Part shown: piece after piece, positions 28,897-39,865 of the stretch
Layout: each line of letters opens with the position of its first letter
Numbering within the stretch: the first letter of the stretch is position 1
Assembly (NCBI RefSeq): GCF_000012885.1
Contig: NC_007498.2
Location: 2,232,001 to 2,296,000, forward strand
Source of the DNA: Syntrophotalea carbinolica DSM 2380
GTDB lineage: Bacteria > Desulfobacterota > Desulfuromonadia > Desulfuromonadales > Syntrophotaleaceae
Reading direction: 5' to 3'
Length of the DNA: 64,000 bases
Translations under genes and position numbers: made by a program
The notes under the pieces: model-generated
Databases searched by the model: none
Told to the model about the DNA's origin: nothing
Seen by the model: only the letters and a program-made list of their open reading frames with translations

Positions 28897-28979
28897 TACC
28901 GGCACAGGGATGGCCCATCGCCGGATAAAGTATGCACAAAAACTAATTAAACTATCGCAAGTGTTTGTTTTTTCAGGTT

Positions 28980-29008
28980 TTGCTGTCAATTACATGCTTT
29001 TTTATGAT
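28980..29008 (+). promoter_or_regulatory. sigma-70 promoter of the TonB receptor gene
   Basis: -35 TTGCTG (28980-28985), 17-bp spacer, -10 TATGAT (29003-29008), in an AT-rich patch unlike the surrounding DNA, 51 bp before the chosen start codon. Confidence 0.65.
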
Positions 29009-29059
29009 AAAACACACAGATTAAAAGATGTCCTGAAATCAGCATCCGAAAAGCATGCA

Positions 29060-31489
29060 ATGAAACTATTGACCTATATAGATCTTCTTGGCCCCCGGAG
29101 AAAAGAAAAACGCGCTGCACGAAGCAGACACCGTCTGCTGATCGGCCTGCTGTTGCTGGCTATGCTGCTTTTGCCTCAAACGGGACAACAGGACAGCTTC
29201 GGCCTCGTATGCGCCTCTGAAATCGATCTGACCGCAAAAAATACCGATCCGGATGACAGCGATTCAACAGTGCTCGCACCGGTTACGGTTCACGGCCGGC
29301 GGGAACCTTTGACAACCGCATCGAAGACCATCGATCGCACAATCATCGACAGCTTCCCCAGCGGCAACAACAGCATCAACGAAATTCTTTCGTTTTTGCC
29401 CGACATCCAGTTCAGCGAAACATCCAATCTGTCCACCCAGGGTGGCGAGATCCTGCCCGCTGCCGTGTCGATCGCCGGCGGTAAAGGTTTTGAAAACAAT
29501 TTTATCATCGATGGATTGAGCAACAACAGTATGCTGGATCCGGACGCCGATGACCCCTTGGCTGTGAACAACGTACCGGGGCATGCCCAGCAAATCTTCC
29601 TGGATGCCTCGCTGGTCGATGAAATCACCCTTTACGACAGCAATGTACCCGCCAGCTACGGGGATTTCAAAGGTGGGGTAGTGCATGCCAGAACCATTGA
29701 ACCGGATGATGAATTCGGTGGCAATTTCTTTTATCGCACCACCCGCGCGGCCTGGACGAAATTCCATATAGCCCCATCCCAAAAGGACGATTTCGAAAAC
29801 TCCGGGAAACATACCAGCCAGCCGAAATTTGAAAAACATCAGGCCGGATTCGATATACATCTCCCGATCCGTTCCCACCTGCGTTTACTGGCAGGGTACC
29901 GGCTACAGCTCTCCACCATTCCCCTGCAGCATCTTGGCGAAACCCGCAACCAGCGGCGCCGCAACGAAACCTTTCTCGTCAAGCTCGCCACGGAACCGAC
30001 GGCATTATCAAAACTGAACCTCAGCTGGACCTACAGCCCCTACCAGGGCCGATACTTCAAAAAAGATTACAAAAATAGCGACCTGACCATCCTCGGCGGC
30101 GCCTATATGGTCAACGCCGATTTTCATACCGCCCTGCCCTTTGCCGACCTGCACCTGCAGGCGGGTTATACAGAAGGCGAAAATTCCCGCGAAGGTCCCG
30201 ACCACATGATTTTGACCCAGAACCCCGACAACAGTTGGGAACGGGAAGGATTTACCGGGGATATCGATAATACCCAGCAGAGCGTGCAATGCAAAACCGA
30301 ATTGGCGCTTCATCAGCTTTCAACAGGTTCGGTTTCCCATGACATCAACCTGGGGTTTGACTTTCAGCATATACGGGGAACCTCCAAGCGTGACGAAACC
30401 AGTTACCTATACACCTTCTATAAAAACGGCACAGCCAGACGCACCGTCTATGCAAAGCACCGGGCCGAAGCCGTTCTGAGACAGTACAACTTTTACTCTG
30501 AAGACATCCTTCGCTATCACCGTCTGGAACTCCGTCCCGGGCTGCGCATCTCTTACGACGATTTTATGCAGAACCTTAACCTGGCGCCACGTCTGGCCGC
30601 TGCACTGGATATCTTCGGCAATGGGCGAACCGTTCTGATCGGTGGGGTCAATCGCTACTATGCAAACACCCTCCTGACCTACAAGTTACGACAGGAAATG
30701 CCGACCACCTATTATGAAACGCGACTGGATGGCGGCGAATGGACCTTTACAAAAACCTACTCCACAACCACCGATTTTCAGACCCTGAAAACGCCCTATG
30801 CGGATGAATACGTCATCGGCCTTGAACAACGGATTTTCGGCGGCAAGGCCACGTTCAAATACGTGCGACGTGACGGCAAAGATGAATTTGCGAAAACTGC
30901 CGGCGACCGGCAACCTGATGGTCTATGGCACTACACTCTCAACAACAATGGCAGCAGCCGGCATGAAAGCTATCGTTTGAGCTGGGAACGGCACTGGCAG
31001 AACCACTCCCTGAGTATCAACGGCACCTACCAGGAAACCACCTCGAGCAACGAATCGTATGAAGATATTTTGGAGGATGATGATCTCGATGAAGACATCT
31101 GGTACAACGGAAAGGTGCTTTCCAAAAGCCAATTGCCGAGAAAGGATTTCAATCGCCCCTGGCTTGTCAGTCTGCTCTATGTCGGAAAGTTTCCTTACGG
31201 CATAACTTTCAGCAGTTTATTGAAATATCGCAGCGGTTATCAGACATTATCGAAAACCGGCGCCGTACATGAAGACCTCGGCATCCCCATATACGAAAAA
31301 GTCCGATACGGAGGTGCCGTGACGGTGAATTGCAGCCTGGGCTGGGGTATCCGGGTATGGAACCGCCAGCAACTGCATCTGAGTCTGGATATCCTTAACC
31401 TGCTGGACAAAAAATCCGTCGCTGGCGAGTCGCAGGACAGTTATGAATTGGGAAGGCAGTTTTGGCTCAGCGCGAAATACAGCTTTTAG
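29060..31489 (+). CDS. TonB-dependent outer-membrane receptor
   Basis: Predicted outer-membrane beta-barrel importing a scarce nutrient with TonB energy. From ATG 29060, about 809 residues: a long basic N-region then a signal peptide (LLIGLLLLAMLLLPQ) ending near VCA, a TonB-box-like APVTVHG segment, a plug domain (about residues 75-200, with NEILSFLPDIQF and NNFIIDGLSNNSML), and alternating barrel strands to a C-terminal KYSF ending in Phe, as expected for barrel insertion. An earlier frame start at 28910 lies upstream of the promoter. No TonB, ExbBD or periplasmic binding protein is nearby and the substrate is unknown. It is the only plus-strand gene in this stretch. Confidence 0.88.
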   Translation: MKLLTYIDLLGPRRKEKRAARSRHRLLIGLLLLAMLLLPQTGQQDSFGLVCASEIDLTAKNTDPDDSDSTVLAPVTVHGRREPLTTASKTIDRTIIDSFPSGNNSINEILSFLPDIQFSETSNLSTQGGEILPAAVSIAGGKGFENNFIIDGLSNNSMLDPDADDPLAVNNVPGHAQQIFLDASLVDEITLYDSNVPASYGDFKGGVVHARTIEPDDEFGGNFFYRTTRAAWTKFHIAPSQKDDFENSGKHTSQPKFEKHQAGFDIHLPIRSHLRLLAGYRLQLSTIPLQHLGETRNQRRRNETFLVKLATEPTALSKLNLSWTYSPYQGRYFKKDYKNSDLTILGGAYMVNADFHTALPFADLHLQAGYTEGENSREGPDHMILTQNPDNSWEREGFTGDIDNTQQSVQCKTELALHQLSTGSVSHDINLGFDFQHIRGTSKRDETSYLYTFYKNGTARRTVYAKHRAEAVLRQYNFYSEDILRYHRLELRPGLRISYDDFMQNLNLAPRLAAALDIFGNGRTVLIGGVNRYYANTLLTYKLRQEMPTTYYETRLDGGEWTFTKTYSTTTDFQTLKTPYADEYVIGLEQRIFGGKATFKYVRRDGKDEFAKTAGDRQPDGLWHYTLNNNGSSRHESYRLSWERHWQNHSLSINGTYQETTSSNESYEDILEDDDLDEDIWYNGKVLSKSQLPRKDFNRPWLVSLLYVGKFPYGITFSSLLKYRSGYQTLSKTGAVHEDLGIPIYEKVRYGGAVTVNCSLGWGIRVWNRQQLHLSLDILNLLDKKSVAGESQDSYELGRQFWLSAKYSF

Positions 31490-31506: not shown

Positions 31507-33648
31507 TCAGTCCGACGACACGACATTGGGCAAAACCATATTTTTATGGCCGTCGGACAGGCACAGGGAATAATTACCGGCCCGGGGCAACGCAGGCAAT
31601 TCCACCTCCAGCTGTCTCGAACCGTGCCGTCTGATATGCGGCACTTTCAAAGGCAGCGGTAGCGCCACCACCCCGCCGAGGCTCGACGACACAAGCAACT
31701 CGTCCCCCATCAGAAGCATTTTCTTGGCCTTGATGCTGATCCCCAATCCTCCCAACACCTGCATGCTGTTCGGAATACGGCTATCGACCACCTGCAAACC
31801 CGCCTGCACATCCCCCACATACACGTAGTCTCCGGATGCGACCAGAGCCGCGGCATAGCCCGGCGTTCCCACGGAACCGAGGAGCTGTGGTTTGTCGGCC
31901 CGGGTCAAATCATAAACCTGGGTGCCGGCTCGACCGTTGGCGACATAAAGTTGGTTGTCTGCCACCGACAATGAGGTCGCATGACAAAACGGCAACAGAT
32001 AATCCGGTACGGGAAGCTTACCGACCACTGCCGCTTTATCGGGGTGACGAACGTCGACCACGAAGGTACCGGCACTGCCACAGGCCAGATATACATAATC
32101 TCCCGCCACCGCAATATCGAGCAAAGGATCGGGAACCGCCAGCGACATGCGCAAGCGCATCGTGTTATGCGGATGGGCATCCACAATATGCAGGGTACCG
32201 CACCGCTGCCCCACAAACAGTTTCTGTCGCTGATAGACAACCCGGTTTACTTTGCCCTCAAACGAAAGGGTCTCGGCGATTTTACTCTTCGTGTCGTCAA
32301 GCTTCACCGCATGCAAACCACCCAAGCCGTCTGCCACAAACGCCCGATCGTCACCAAGCGACACATCGATGGCCTTGCCGGGCGTATCGACAGTCCGGAT
32401 CAGACGCAAGTGCCGCTGCTCGTTGACGAGGATCTGCAACCCGGCAGCACCGTTCGCCACATAAATGTAACGCCCGCGGGTGGCAAGTCCCTGGGCAACC
32501 CCAGCAGCATTCAAAGCCTTGGGCGGTGCCATCGGGGAAAGTCGGTCCAGTGCAACAATCTGCACACCTTTCTTGCCGTCAGCCACCATGATATGCCGCC
32601 CGGTTAACGTCATATCCCAGGACACGCCCGGGGTATCGACAATGCCAAGCAGGCGCAAGCCGTGCTTTTGCGTCGGGGCAAAAACCTGTACGCCGCCATG
32701 GTCGGTAGCGACCCATAATCGCCCATCGATCCATTTAACGCTCCGGGCCTGCCCCAACGTCGGCATATTTGCCAAAATTTCCGGGGAGCAAGGATCGACC
32801 ACCGAAACGATCTGAATGCCGCCTCTGCGATCGGCCACATAGGCCTTGCCGTCGCGAACCGTAACGCCGGTAGCATAACCGGGAGTATCCACTGTGCCGA
32901 CCAGCGACGGTGGCCCGTTTGAAGAGCAATCAAATATGCTTAAACCGGCTGCATCGTCAGCGACGTAGAGATAACTGCCTACCTTGCATAGGCCGGATGC
33001 CGACCCGGGCGTAGCCACGCTTGCTGTAATGCGCGGTGTGCCACGCAGATCAACGACCTGCACACCTTTGAGATCATCCGCGACATAAGCCCAGTCGTCC
33101 TCGACCCACACATCGAGGGCGCAACCCGGCGTAGCAACGGAAGCAATAATATACGGATTTGACGGTTGCGCCACGGAAACCACATGAATGCCGCCTTGTG
33201 AAGCGGCGATATAAACGCGATCGTTATGTACGGTCAGGTCCCAGGCCTTCCCTGGAATCGGCAGGGAACCGATAATGACAGGCTGCTCGGGAATCGCCAC
33301 ATCGACAACCTGCAATCCACGCACCGTGTCGACGACAAAAGCAAGGTTGCCCTTGCCCGCAACACTTTTCGCAATCCCCCAACTGGGCATACTGCCGACA
33401 ATGGCATAGTGATTGCCGATATCGTAATTTAAAAGCGCCTGCATATCCTCGGAGAATCCCTGCCCTCTCAGGACCAGCGAATTCTCTGCGACGCCGCGAC
33501 CCTTTTTTCGTTTTACGGAACTCACCGTAAAATCGTCCTGTTGCGGAGTCGGTTTAAATATGCTCAGCAGCAGAAAGGTGAACAGAGCCAGATAACACAA
33601 TCCGCAGAGTCCGGCAATGAGTCGTAATCTATGAGTCTTGAAGTGCAT
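31507..33648 (-). CDS. membrane-anchored protein with 14 LVIVD-type beta-propeller repeats
   Basis: 713 residues of unknown function. An N-terminal basic segment and one hydrophobic helix (about 11-31) give a signal anchor; the rest is a chain of about 42-residue repeats of the form V-x-TPG-x-A-x-x-V-x(3)-D-x-x-YVAD-x-x-x-GLQVVD-x-x-x-P. I count 14 such units from about residue 75 to 675, enough for two seven-bladed propellers, then a short C-terminal beta domain. LVIVD proteins are extracytoplasmic and often surface-associated (family knowledge). Its start lies 20 bp inside the 3' end of the hybrid kinase gene, so the two are coupled and probably work together. It converges on the TonB receptor gene with only 17 bp between stops. 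Confidence 0.82.
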
Positions 33649-36300: not shown

Positions 36301-36334
36301 CGGCTCCATCCCCTGAGAACCGGGAATGGAGCCG
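36301..36334 (-). terminator. terminator of the feo operon
   Basis: CGGCTCCAT (36301-36309) pairs with ATGGAGCCG (36326-36334), extended by further C/G pairs; a run of six T follows on the minus strand (complement of 36294-36299). Placed 32 bp after the DtxR-FeoA stop. Confidence 0.8.
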
Positions 36335-36365: not shown

Positions 36366-37022
36366 TCACTCGGCAACATCGGTGCGGATGAATATTTCCC
36401 GAGCCAGTTGCTCATCAACGGCGAATTCGGAATTTCCCACATGAAAAATATACGAGGGGAATCGACGATTGAGGCATATGTCGTTGCCCGGCAAAACACC
36501 AAGAGACATGAGCTTCTGCATCTTCTTGGCATCGCTGGTCGTCAGATAGGCTATTTCGCCTTTCTGACCGACTTTCATTTCGGTCAAAGGAACCACCCCG
36601 ACCTCCGCCGCGTGACGGGCAGCCCGGCAACATTCACCGAGAGGAATGGGCCTGCCATGCGGACAGGTTGTAGGGTGGTTCAACAAGGTGCAAATACGGG
36701 TATCGACACCCTCATTGAGTAAATGCTCGAATTCACACGCCTTGGCGTTGGCATTGCTGCCCTTGAGGTCGAGAATATCCATCATCAAACGCTCTGCCAA
36801 TCGGTGTCGCCGCACAACCTTTTCCCCGGCGATACGCCCTTCGGAGCGCAGATAAACCCTCTCGCCCTTGACTTCGATCAGAGCCTGGCGTTCCAGATCC
36901 ATCAAAGCCGGTTCCCGGGCTTCCACATCCAAAGCCTCAAGGGAAGCCGAATTATCCCCTTCTTCAACCACGGCTATCCAGACGGCTTCCAGAATATCTT
37001 CAGCCCGTTCCGAGTTTTCCAT
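36366..37022 (-). CDS. DtxR/IdeR-type metalloregulator with C-terminal FeoA (SH3-like) domain
   Basis: Probable iron- or manganese-responsive repressor of 218 residues. N-terminal winged helix (about 1-70); dimerisation/metal domain with RRHRLAERLM and ACEFEHLL, matching the DtxR ligand set H73, E77, C96, E99 and H100; then TCPHGRPIP; then a FeoA/SH3-like domain from about 143 (LTEMKVGQKGEIAYL to the end). DtxR proteins usually carry such a domain, but here it looks close to FeoA itself and there is no separate feoA gene, so it may also serve FeoB. ATG 37022 shares one base with the previous stop; AAGGAG lies 8 nt upstream. Confidence 0.88.
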   Translation of the reverse strand: MENSERAEDILEAVWIAVVEEGDNSASLEALDVEAREPALMDLERQALIEVKGERVYLRSEGRIAGEKVVRRHRLAERLMMDILDLKGSNANAKACEFEHLLNEGVDTRICTLLNHPTTCPHGRPIPLGECCRAARHAAEVGVVPLTEMKVGQKGEIAYLTTSDAKKMQKLMSLGVLPGNDICLNRRFPSYIFHVGNSEFAVDEQLAREIFIRTDVAE

Positions 37023-37204
37023 CAATCGTTCTCCTTGGAATTGTCTTTTTTTCTCCAGCGGCGCAACAAACCGGGCACCATGGGATTTTCATACCCGCAC
37101 CATGGACAATGTATCTTGCGGCATCCGCCCAGACAGGCACCGCAAGGTTTTTGCCGCAACTTATCCGGCGGCGGCAGTGTGCGACCGCAGAAACCGCATT
37201 TCAT
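37022..37204 (-). CDS. small Cys-rich Feo-associated protein
   Basis: 60-residue protein with seven Cys in a zinc-ribbon or Fe-S-like pattern: CxxC near the N-terminus (C3, C6), CxxC-x3-C (C21, C24, C28) and CxxC (C33, C36), followed by a basic tail. ATG 37204 overlaps the feoB stop as ATGA and its own stop overlaps the next gene, so it is translated between FeoB and the DtxR-FeoA protein. It is not FeoC, which is a winged-helix protein, and not the membrane-anchored FeoB-associated Cys protein. A role in FeoB regulation or iron delivery is an inference from position. Confidence 0.75.
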   Translation of the reverse strand: MKCGFCGRTLPPPDKLRQKPCGACLGGCRKIHCPWCGYENPMVPGLLRRWRKKDNSKEND

Positions 37205-39165
37205 GCCAGCCATCCGGTAAAGCCAAGCACAAGGTTAAGACCCCAGCCTACGCCAAAAGCCAGCAGCGTCACCATCATGAAAATACCAAGGGAGACCTTC
37301 CACCCGCGTTCTTTTTTCATCATGAGAAACTGGGCGATACAAGGAACAAACAAGGTCATGGTGACAGCGGCGACCGTCAGTTGACGGGGGCTAAGTAACC
37401 CCTGGGCGTGCATATCATAAAGGCCGGCAGCACCGAAATCGCGCCGGAAAAATCCGAAAATAAACGCAGCGGTCGTTTTGGCCGGCAATCCGAGAGCGGA
37501 AATAGCCGGAGCCATGACGCGCACCAGACCATTAAGAGCACCGGTCATTTTCCCGGCCCAGAGCAAAACGGAAGCGAATATGAACAGCGGAAAGATCTCC
37601 AGGAAATACCACTGCATCCGGCTGACGGTTTTGATCAATACGTTGCGGGCCTGGGGCAGACGCATGGGAGGTAATTCCATGTAAAACATGGGGCGCTCTC
37701 CTGGCAACAGGCGGGCTGAAAGAAATCCAACAGCCAGAAACACCAGCGTTACGCACGCCACCCACACAGGCAAAGCCCCGGGAACTTCGGACAACAACCC
37801 CATGATGACCCCCAACTGAGCACTGCAGGGAACCGCCAAAGCCAGCAGCAAGGTCACGATGATGCGCTCTCGCACCGTTTCAAGAGTACGGGTTACCATA
37901 GTCGCCATGGTATCGCAACCAAAGCCCAACACCATGGGGATAACCGCCCGCCCGTTTAGCCCGATCTTCTTGAAGATCCGGTCGACGAGCATGGCCAGAC
38001 GCGGAAAATATCCGACATCCTCCATGATCGAGAAAGCCAGGAAAAAAGTCCCGACAATGGGCAGCACCAACGCAACGGCATAACGCACGCCGAGGGTGAA
38101 GACCCCGTATTCGCCGACCAGCAATTCGCGCAGCCAGTACCAGGATGTCATTTTCTGAACCAGGTCGATAACCCAGGGATTGATGTAATCCTCGAACAAT
38201 CCGCCTTCCAGAAGATCGACCAGCGTTCCGGCGCCAAACTTGCCGACAAAGACGTAAATACCGAAGTAAAGGACCAGCAACAGCAAGGGAAACCCGGTCC
38301 AGGGGTTAATGGTCCACGCCGCAAGTTTCTCGAAAAAAGTCGGCGCACGATCGGCCTGTTGATGGATTACTTCTTCCAAAATGGCGCGACAGATGCGCTT
38401 GCGTTCCAGACTGATCCGCAGATTAAGATCCATGCGCCGCTCGTAAATGGTATCGTTGACGGCCTTCTCGATGGCCTCCAAGCGACTCGGTTCCGCCTTT
38501 TTGATCAGCGCCCAGGCATCTTCATCTTTCTGGAGAAGAAGTAGAGCGATGGAGCGTGGAACCAGGGTATAGTCATCGGTCAAATGCCGGGATACCTTGG
38601 CCAGGTCTTTTTCAAGCTCATGGGAATAACCGAATACCGCCTTAACGTCGGGATTATAGGACGCTATAGCCTGGCGCAGCTCGGAAAGCCCGCGTTTTCT
38701 TGCCATAGCACCGCCAATGACGGGAATACCCAGTTTTTCCTGCAGCAAAGGAATATCGATATGCATCCCTCTGCGCTCGGCCTCGTCGAGGATATTGATC
38801 AACAGCACAACCGGTAGCCCGGCCTCGACCAGCTGCAAAGTCATGGGCAGCATACGCTCGAGATTACGGGCATCGATAACATGGACGACCGTATGCGCCG
38901 ATTCTTTAAGCAGGATTTCCCGAGCTACCCGTTCTTCTTCGGTTATGGGCAGCAAGGAATACATCCCGGGCGTATCAAGGACTTCGTAGGACACACCTTC
39001 GATCTCGCAGCAGCCGCGCGAAACCTCCACGGAGGTACCGGGATAATTGGATACAACGGTATAGGCCCCGGTCAGGGCATTGAAAAGGACGCTCTTACCG
39101 ACATTCGGATTCCCGACCAGCACGATTTTGCGTTCGGCTGGACACACTTCACTTTGTACTGCCAT
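37201..39165 (-). CDS. feoB: ferrous iron transporter B
   Basis: Inner-membrane Fe2+ transporter with a G-protein domain. G1 GNPNVGKS at 18-25, G2 region with NYPGTSVEVSRG, G3 DTPGMYSL, a helical GDI-like spacer, then membrane gate domains (two repeats, GFGCDTMATMVTRTLE and FIFGFFRRDFGAAGLYD, each with a conserved Cys or Arg region). 654 residues from ATG 39165; the frame is open to 39234 but that stretch is not conserved. First gene of the coupled feoB / Cys-rich / DtxR-FeoA set, with fur immediately upstream on the same strand. Confidence 0.95.
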   Translation of the reverse strand: MAVQSEVCPAERKIVLVGNPNVGKSVLFNALTGAYTVVSNYPGTSVEVSRGCCEIEGVSYEVLDTPGMYSLLPITEEERVAREILLKESAHTVVHVIDARNLERMLPMTLQLVEAGLPVVLLINILDEAERRGMHIDIPLLQEKLGIPVIGGAMARKRGLSELRQAIASYNPDVKAVFGYSHELEKDLAKVSRHLTDDYTLVPRSIALLLLQKDEDAWALIKKAEPSRLEAIEKAVNDTIYERRMDLNLRISLERKRICRAILEEVIHQQADRAPTFFEKLAAWTINPWTGFPLLLLVLYFGIYVFVGKFGAGTLVDLLEGGLFEDYINPWVIDLVQKMTSWYWLRELLVGEYGVFTLGVRYAVALVLPIVGTFFLAFSIMEDVGYFPRLAMLVDRIFKKIGLNGRAVIPMVLGFGCDTMATMVTRTLETVRERIIVTLLLALAVPCSAQLGVIMGLLSEVPGALPVWVACVTLVFLAVGFLSARLLPGERPMFYMELPPMRLPQARNVLIKTVSRMQWYFLEIFPLFIFASVLLWAGKMTGALNGLVRVMAPAISALGLPAKTTAAFIFGFFRRDFGAAGLYDMHAQGLLSPRQLTVAAVTMTLFVPCIAQFLMMKKERGWKVSLGIFMMVTLLAFGVGWGLNLVLGFTGWLA

Positions 39166-39363
39166 AGCTGAATATTCCGGAAGGGGTTGCTGAACAATTA
39201 AATAACAAGAATTTCTGCTGCCTTGTGACCACAAAGGGTCGTCACATTAACTATTTTACGATCATTATTTGTCGCGGACATAAGTAGCCAGCGGCATTGC
39301 CTACCACTACTCAAGGCAAAATGCCGTGCCGCAGGTCACGGTTTACATTATTAAACAACGACA

Positions 39364-39795
39364 TCAGGAAGAGGAGCACTTGGAGCACCGTCCGTAGATC
39401 TCCAGACGGTGATCTCGGATGGTAAAGTTATGCTCCTTCGCCACCTTACTCTGCAACTCTTCAATACGCTCATCCTCGAATTCGATAATTTCACCGCATT
39501 CGGTGCAGATAAGGTGATCATGGTGCTGCCCCTGATTGGTCACTTCGTAAAGAGCCTGGCCCGCACCGAAGTCGCGCTCTTTCGCCAAGCCGCACTCGGC
39601 CAGCAGCTTGAGCGTTCGATAAACAGTGGCATATCCGATACGAGGATGTTTTTTTCGCACCTTCAGGTAGAGATCTTCGGTCGATAAATGCGCGGCAGAA
39701 CGGAGAAATTCATCGAGGATAATTTCCCTTTGACGGGTAAGCTTAAGCCCCTGCTGGCTGATATACTTCCGAAATATTTCAATTTTATCAGGCAT
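39364..39795 (-). CDS. Fur-family transcriptional regulator
   Basis: Metal-responsive repressor of 143 residues, probably the iron regulator Fur. Winged helix with GLKLTRQREIILDEFLRS and ATVYRTLKLLAECGL; metal site HHDHLICTECGEIIEF with the CxxC pair; second Cys pair CSKCSS at the C-terminus. The ATG at 39795 has GGAGG 6 nt upstream; the frame is open to 39822. It precedes feoB by 198 bp, so it may control the feo genes. PerR or Zur cannot be excluded by eye, but the HHDHLIC motif and location favour Fur. Confidence 0.9.
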   Translation of the reverse strand: MPDKIEIFRKYISQQGLKLTRQREIILDEFLRSAAHLSTEDLYLKVRKKHPRIGYATVYRTLKLLAECGLAKERDFGAGQALYEVTNQGQHHDHLICTECGEIIEFEDERIEELQSKVAKEHNFTIRDHRLEIYGRCSKCSSS

Positions 39796-39865
39796 GACCC
39801 CTCCAGTGAAATTGAATATCAAAGTACCAGAGTGGCCGGGTGGGTGTCAAGCGGTAAGACACGGA

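Follow-up and report, generated by a model that had tools for sequence, protein, structure and literature searches.

The control of FeoB is an open question, on which the iron uptake cluster of Syntrophotalea carbinolica DSM 2380 bears through a small frame, rich in cysteine codons, that lies between feoB and a dtxR-like gene. We asked whether this frame is a gene, which of its neighbors it belongs with, and what its product might do, beginning with a window of 64,000 nucleotides (the whole stretch of DNA analyzed; contig NC_007498.2, positions 2,232,001 to 2,296,000). Our analysis indicates that the product is probably a metal-binding component of the Feo uptake system that has been overlooked.

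A small frame overlaps feoB and a dtxR-like gene

The gene order in the cluster is fur, feoB, the small gene, and dtxR (Table 1). The initial annotation had described a sixty-residue, seven-cysteine protein that overlaps both neighbors, and its coordinates and cysteine spacing check out. On the minus strand, the start codon of the small gene (ATG, 37204-37202) shares the sequence ATGA with the feoB stop codon (TGA, 37203-37201), and its own stop codon (TGA, 37024-37022) forms a TGATG junction with the start of the next gene (ATG, 37022-37020). The 60-codon product, MKCGFCGRTLPPPDKLRQKPCGACLGGCRKIHCPWCGYENPMVPGLLRRWRKKDNSKEND, has its cysteines arranged as C3-x2-C6, C21-x2-C24-x3-C28, and C33-x2-C36 and shows, as judged by eye, no hydrophobic stretch. 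The longest open frame begins at ATG 37213 and encodes 63 amino acids, and we prefer the start at ATG 37204 because most homologs start at MKC or its equivalent. When six copies of the gene were compared in 15 same-genus pairs, dN/dS was 0.05 to 0.12 in 12 of them, a range that leaves aside the 3 pairs for which dS was not computable. These values indicate a real protein-coding gene under strong purifying selection.

Table 1 Coordinates of the features of the cluster within the window
Feature	Position	Strand	Evidence and remarks
fur, first gene of cluster	39364..39795	-	PF01475, 139.8 bits; ATG 39795, open frame extends to TTG 39822
feoB	37201..39234	-	FeoB_N, Gate, FeoB_C; TIGR00437, 446 bits (cut-off 316); start uncertain, TTG 39234 or later
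Seven-cysteine FeoB-associated protein, 60 aa	37022..37204	-	ATG 37204, TGA 37024-37022; homologs; purifying selection
DtxR/IdeR-like regulator with C-terminal FeoA-type domain	36366..37022	-	PF02742, PF04023; IdeR 1fx7, E 1.7e-20, residues 41-180
Terminator-like hairpin after last gene	36301..36334	-	13 pairs, then T run
Weak Fur-box-like site before fur, tentative	39806..39822	-	4 mismatches to delta-proteobacterial consensus (PMC545781)

The downstream neighbor had been annotated as a fusion of DtxR and FeoA. A match to the FeoA model bears out the second half of that name, whereas the notion of an unusual fusion does not hold, since the match to IdeR marks an ordinary DtxR/IdeR-like protein and classic DtxR proteins carry such a C-terminal FeoA-type domain. 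Residues 1 to 40 have no Pfam match and lie outside the IdeR match, so the DNA-binding part may be degenerate; a weaker PDB match, 5zr4, begins at residue 8.

The hairpin that follows the last gene has the longest stem among eight terminator-like sites in the region, against 5.6 expected. A clear Fur box was expected before fur, and none was found within 3 mismatches of the delta-proteobacterial consensus; the 64 kb contain 16 places like the weaker site listed in Table 1, itself included, and it is therefore not significant alone. Elsewhere in the window, inspection by eye showed a large outer-membrane-receptor-like open reading frame (28910-31489, plus strand) that faces a gene for a 713-amino-acid protein (31507-33648, minus strand) with recurring "VDTPG"-type repeats.

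The seven cysteines are conserved among relatives

All seven cysteines are invariant in three alignments (30/30, 23/23, and 52/52 rows), an observation that is descriptive because the rows were chosen from relatives already found. In a scan of genome contigs, a strict seven-cysteine pattern fits 71 of the 76 loci among the matches listed, where the pattern search itself used parts of the cysteine motif. Three of the loci outside the strict pattern (L046, L065, and L084) retain all seven cysteines but have a changed loop or lack the CP proline, while one gene is cut by a contig end (L079) and another has an apparent frameshift (L104). The family can be defined by the approximate pattern CxxC-x10-18-Cx2-3C-x3-5-C-x4-CxxC together with a site beside feoB, and the window protein has both. 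Judged from these sequences, the arrangement CxxC, CxxC-x3-5-C, CxxC is conserved from Desulfuromonadales to archaea. We also found a net positive tail in 131 of 160 distinct proteins that match the seven-cysteine pattern.

The small gene and one type of FeoB in the bacterial class

The small cysteine protein is present in 45 of 58 relatives searched, and in all 30 loci that were fetched its gene follows feoB and precedes a dtxR-like gene. Homologs next to feoB, whose absence the initial annotation had named as grounds for dropping its proposal, are thus seen across many genomes. Among the 76 loci listed, feoB lies within 100 nt of the small gene in 72; 73 have a dtxR-like gene at a distance of up to 400 nt, and 65 have fur farther upstream. 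The four loci without feoB are three contig starts and one archaeon (L106); the loci without the dtxR-like gene are contig ends, the archaeon L106 excepted.

In a class sample of 194 genomes, 166 have the cysteine protein and 163 have a FeoB of the window type, defined by a match at E 1e-120 or better. Both genes occur together in 163 genomes, and no genome has the window-type FeoB without the cysteine protein. In the three genomes with the cysteine protein only (G137, G185, and G189), its gene lies approximately 770, 70, and 470 nt, respectively, from a contig end, and a truncated FeoB is still visible in G137 and G189. Fisher's test on these counts (163/3/0/28) gives a P value of ~1e-30 for genomes that are related and so not independent; because of this kinship, the cases of joint loss and joint duplication described below outweigh the P value. 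FeoB, the cysteine protein, and the DtxR-like gene were found together in 18 of 20 class regions fetched, the exceptions being G008 and G010.

Distribution beyond the class

Across the phylum, 39 of 395 genomes match the small protein at E 0.001 or better, and 23 of these lie outside the class, with the small gene after feoB in 21 of the 23. Two out-of-class matches (G226 and G352) were rejected as members, as they appear to have hit other proteins by chance. The lead to archaea came from the stray match L106, in Candidatus Methanovirga, and a broader profile matches 129 of 149 genomes of the same archaeal phylum, a count that includes divergent forms, since ten of 20 lower-scoring loci lack the seven-cysteine motif.

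We examined 40 archaeal loci. The best 20 all fit the seven-cysteine motif, and 17 of them lie beside feoB while three do not adjoin it. The 17 comprise seven with the order feoB-feoA-cys, seven with the order feoB-cys, and three with a window-type FeoB, where a dtxR-like gene comes next in two and the third is incomplete. In 14 of the best 20 loci, feoB is adjacent and there is no DtxR match. Ten of the 20 lower-scoring loci, which were picked by hand, fit the motif, and all ten of these lie beside feoB, so that 27 of 30 motif-fitting archaeal loci do so. Sequence matches thus place the family in many Pelobacter/Geobacter-related bacteria and in archaea related to methanogens. A tblastn search of 72,556 plasmid records found nothing for the family, a weak result since the query was a hand-made consensus.

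Several archaeal proteins were not counted as members. L208, L216, and L222 encode tandem or respaced cysteine proteins after feoB, and L209 does so after feoA; in L208, L216, and L209, we observed two tandem small cysteine-rich proteins with altered spacing. L210 to L215 contain a CC-containing form beside other genes, which by eye is a divergent zinc-ribbon-like protein next to kinase-like genes and, in five of these six loci, also next to KH-domain-like genes. Inspection by eye also showed an ACR3/bile-acid-type-like membrane protein that recurs in L188, L194, L197, L198, L207, L210 to L212, L214, and L215; it is encoded near the seven-cysteine or related gene even in archaeal loci where feoB is absent.

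Loss, duplication, and exchange of FeoB

The gene content of particular genomes separates the candidate partners of the small gene. In G008 and G010, which belong to one genus, fur is followed directly by dtxR, and feoB and the small gene are both absent, which argues that the small gene follows feoB and not dtxR. A second complete feoB-cys-dtxR module is present in G007 and in G068. Among archaea, two feoB-feoA-cys units stand in tandem in G645, and G603 and G606 encode two very different FeoB types, each with its own cys gene alongside. In at least three genomes of the phylum outside the class (G222, G294, and G228), the gene that follows encodes FeoA without a DtxR part. Together with the 14 archaeal loci that lack a DtxR match, these FeoA-only neighbors identify FeoB as the constant partner.

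FeoB is also found without the small protein. A FeoB match is present in 18 of 20 archaeal genomes that have no small-protein match, and among 26 loci scanned in archaeal genomes of this kind, a degenerate relative follows feoB in just one (L241, G632). The source genome itself has a second, canonical FeoA-FeoB locus (L232; G000:C1, ~1038000-1039700), whose FeoB is 33% identical to the window FeoB and 41% identical to an archaeal FeoB. No seven-cysteine match was found at this second locus, and the single match in the genome is the window gene. FeoB as such therefore does not need the small protein, while particular FeoB lineages seem to. On this evidence, we are confident that the small gene is linked to particular FeoB transporters in two phyla, one bacterial and one archaeal.

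Predicted structure and metal binding

An AlphaFold2 model of the small protein (52 alignment rows) is of middling quality, with a mean pLDDT of 73.6 and a pTM of 0.51. The two knuckles are modeled with pLDDT values of 91 and 90 and the middle with values of 69 to 77, and a C-terminal helix (residues 45 to 54) falls in blocks that average 65 and 50. Foldseek returned no hit for the model at E 0.001 or better; the weak, non-significant resemblances seen below that level (best E 0.84) are to zinc ribbons, including those of RNA polymerase. When the family profile was searched against PDB sequences, generic zinc fingers and ribbons were the only matches (best E 0.0011), and these are at least partly driven by composition.

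The initial annotation had suggested that the protein may bind Fe2+, zinc, or an Fe-S cluster and may report or deliver iron at FeoB. The seven invariant cysteines and the weakly zinc-ribbon-like model make it likely, and only likely, that the protein binds metal. We would expect zinc at C3, C6, C33, and C36. The other three cysteines, C21, C24, and C28, would make up a second site with three ligands, of a kind that could take Fe2+ or a labile cluster, although this site could be structural instead. The net basic tail is a possible contact surface.

Proposed role and alternatives

The reading that we prefer is that the small protein is a soluble, FeoC-like accessory subunit of one Feo type, belongs to a family different from FeoC, and uses a metal site to adjust FeoB; as a combined statement, we give this an even chance of being correct. 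In this scheme, the protein would take, in one type of Feo system, the role that FeoC has in enterobacteria. Translational coupling, suggested by the ATGA and TGATG overlaps, would keep the ratio of small protein to FeoB fixed, and the protein would dock on the cytoplasmic face of FeoB, with its basic C-terminal tail providing the contact. The outer knuckles, C3/C6 and C33/C36, would hold a structural zinc, and the central C21-x2-C24-x3-C28, one ligand short, would bind either Fe2+ on its way in or a labile Fe-S cluster. Occupancy or redox state of this three-cysteine site would then tune the transport, GTPase activity, or stability of FeoB. Docking, the metal, and sensing are the parts that we infer, and a mechanism of iron or redox sensing is a tentative proposal, to which we give somewhat less than an even chance. 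A bolder version, in which the protein is a bacterial-archaeal Feo component whose labile three-cysteine site reads iron or Fe-S status and gates FeoB directly, is more doubtful still. If it is true, iron import in these organisms would be controlled at the transporter itself.

The constant link to feoB and the small, cysteine-rich product without a membrane segment would also fit an iron chaperone, whose thiolates would take Fe2+ at the cytoplasmic mouth of FeoB and hand it on, either to DtxR/Fur or to the machinery of Fe-S assembly, and which would exert no control over FeoB. Tight thiolate sites fit zinc or clusters better than fast Fe2+ transfer, however, and we consider this function unlikely. 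Somewhat less probable again is a passive zinc-ribbon scaffold that aids the folding or dimerization of FeoB or the holding of FeoA, with all seven cysteines structural. The CxxCG and CPxCG knuckles and the weak resemblance of the model to zinc ribbons are what such a scaffold would show, but one zinc needs four cysteines, and an invariant extra three-cysteine motif is hard to explain structurally.

The small protein might instead be a partner of the DtxR/FeoA protein, for example by modulating its metal sensing, given that a DtxR-type gene lies no more than 400 nt away in 73 of the 76 loci listed and that a single open frame of one genome, G374, encodes both a cysteine domain and a FeoA domain. 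At that locus (L166; G374:C15), the frame includes a porin-like extension in addition to the seven-cysteine and FeoA domains. Such a fusion would be strong evidence of physical association, but we downgraded it because the porin-like protein belongs to the same frame and a possible ribosome site or internal start lies before the FeoA part; the fused frame may be an assembly or sequence error. Moreover, G008 and G010 retained dtxR yet lost feoB and the small gene together, and the small gene lies beside feoB without a DtxR match in most of the best 20 archaeal loci, so a partnership with DtxR is quite improbable. A nucleic-acid-binding zinc ribbon, such as an RNA-level regulator of the feo mRNA, would suit the basic tail, and small zinc ribbons often bind nucleic acid, but the gene goes with feoB when feoB is lost, duplicated, or exchanged for another FeoB type, and we regard this function as very improbable indeed.

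With 60 residues and amenable to genetics, the small protein offers a way into the control of FeoB in iron-reducing bacteria and in archaea. It accompanies the window-type FeoB in every one of the 163 class genomes that have that transporter.

Earlier descriptions of the locus

As arrangements under a Fur box, Rodionov et al. (2004) list fur2-feoB1-R for Desulfuromonas and feoB1-R for Geobacter, and the available portions of that article make no mention of the small gene (PMC545781). In its accessible parts, the Geobacter metallireducens genome paper reports that the FeoB-1 of Geobacteraceae clusters apart from characterized FeoB and leaves its specificity unassigned (PMC2700814). Gomez-Garzon et al. 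(2022) name FeoC and the PF12669 protein as small Feo accessories and describe the roles of FeoA and FeoC as unclear; the words "Deltaproteobacteria," "Geobacter," "Desulfo," and "zinc" do not occur in its main text, and its figure legends, as far as accessible, list no deltaproteobacteria (PMC8749426). A survey of methanogen iron pathways covers FeoA and FeoB, and neither FeoC nor "cysteine-rich" occurs in its accessible text (PMC8351635). The available portions of three further articles (PMC8516115, PMC11934962, and PMC8980893) add nothing on the small gene, and we found no description of the seven-cysteine family in the open-licence PMC literature on Feo systems, to the extent that its text is accessible.

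Comparison with known Feo accessories

Neither the window protein nor six diverse relatives matched any Pfam or NCBIfam model above its cut-off, and the family is left unnamed by both libraries. FeoC (PF09012), a protein of winged-helix fold, is likewise small, cytosolic, mostly cysteine-bearing, and encoded beside feoB in the feo operon. We confirmed the statement of the initial annotation that the window protein is not FeoC, as it has no match to the PF09012 profile at E values up to 1 and the profile has no match anywhere in its genome (G000). The same profile finds FeoC in 11 of the 194 class genomes and matches 5 of 14 control genomes, E. coli among them. Nine of the 11 class matches are strong, and the other two (G038 and G098) have E values of ~2e-4. 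Ten of the 11 FeoC-bearing genomes also have the seven-cysteine protein, always on a different contig, and at four FeoC loci that were fetched, FeoB is 31 to 36% identical to the window FeoB over the aligned parts. E. coli FeoC is described, in the accessible text of the review, as forming a [4Fe-4S] cluster and needing its cysteines for full function (PMC8749426). E. coli FeoC has four cysteines, in contrast to the seven of the window protein in the arrangement CxxC/CxxC-x3-5-C/CxxC.

The PF12669 protein is also very small, cysteine-rich, and encoded downstream of feoB, and it differs, according to the available text, in being a membrane protein with the motif Cx3-5Cx2-3Cx6-8C (PMC8749426). 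The window protein has no match to PF12669 and no hydrophobic segment, in agreement with the earlier view that it is not the membrane-anchored FeoB-associated cysteine protein. Among archaea, Mvol_0976 of Methanococcus voltae is described, in the accessible part of its report, as a "ferredoxin-like" protein encoded between FeoB and FeoA that is 69-fold more abundant on FeS2; according to its authors, it may serve iron acquisition and is unique to M. voltae (PMC9431491). We liken it to the seven-cysteine family by its described gene position, not by sequence, and by this analogy it could be a functional counterpart of the small protein. With generic zinc ribbons and rubredoxin-like knuckles, the family shares the CxxCG and CPxCG elements and sub-threshold Pfam hits, and it departs from them in its extra three-cysteine loop, its fixed feoB context, and the lack of a hit at curated cut-offs. 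Small cysteine-rich Feo accessories are thus a kind already known, and the seven-cysteine family is apparently a third, undescribed one beside FeoC and PF12669.
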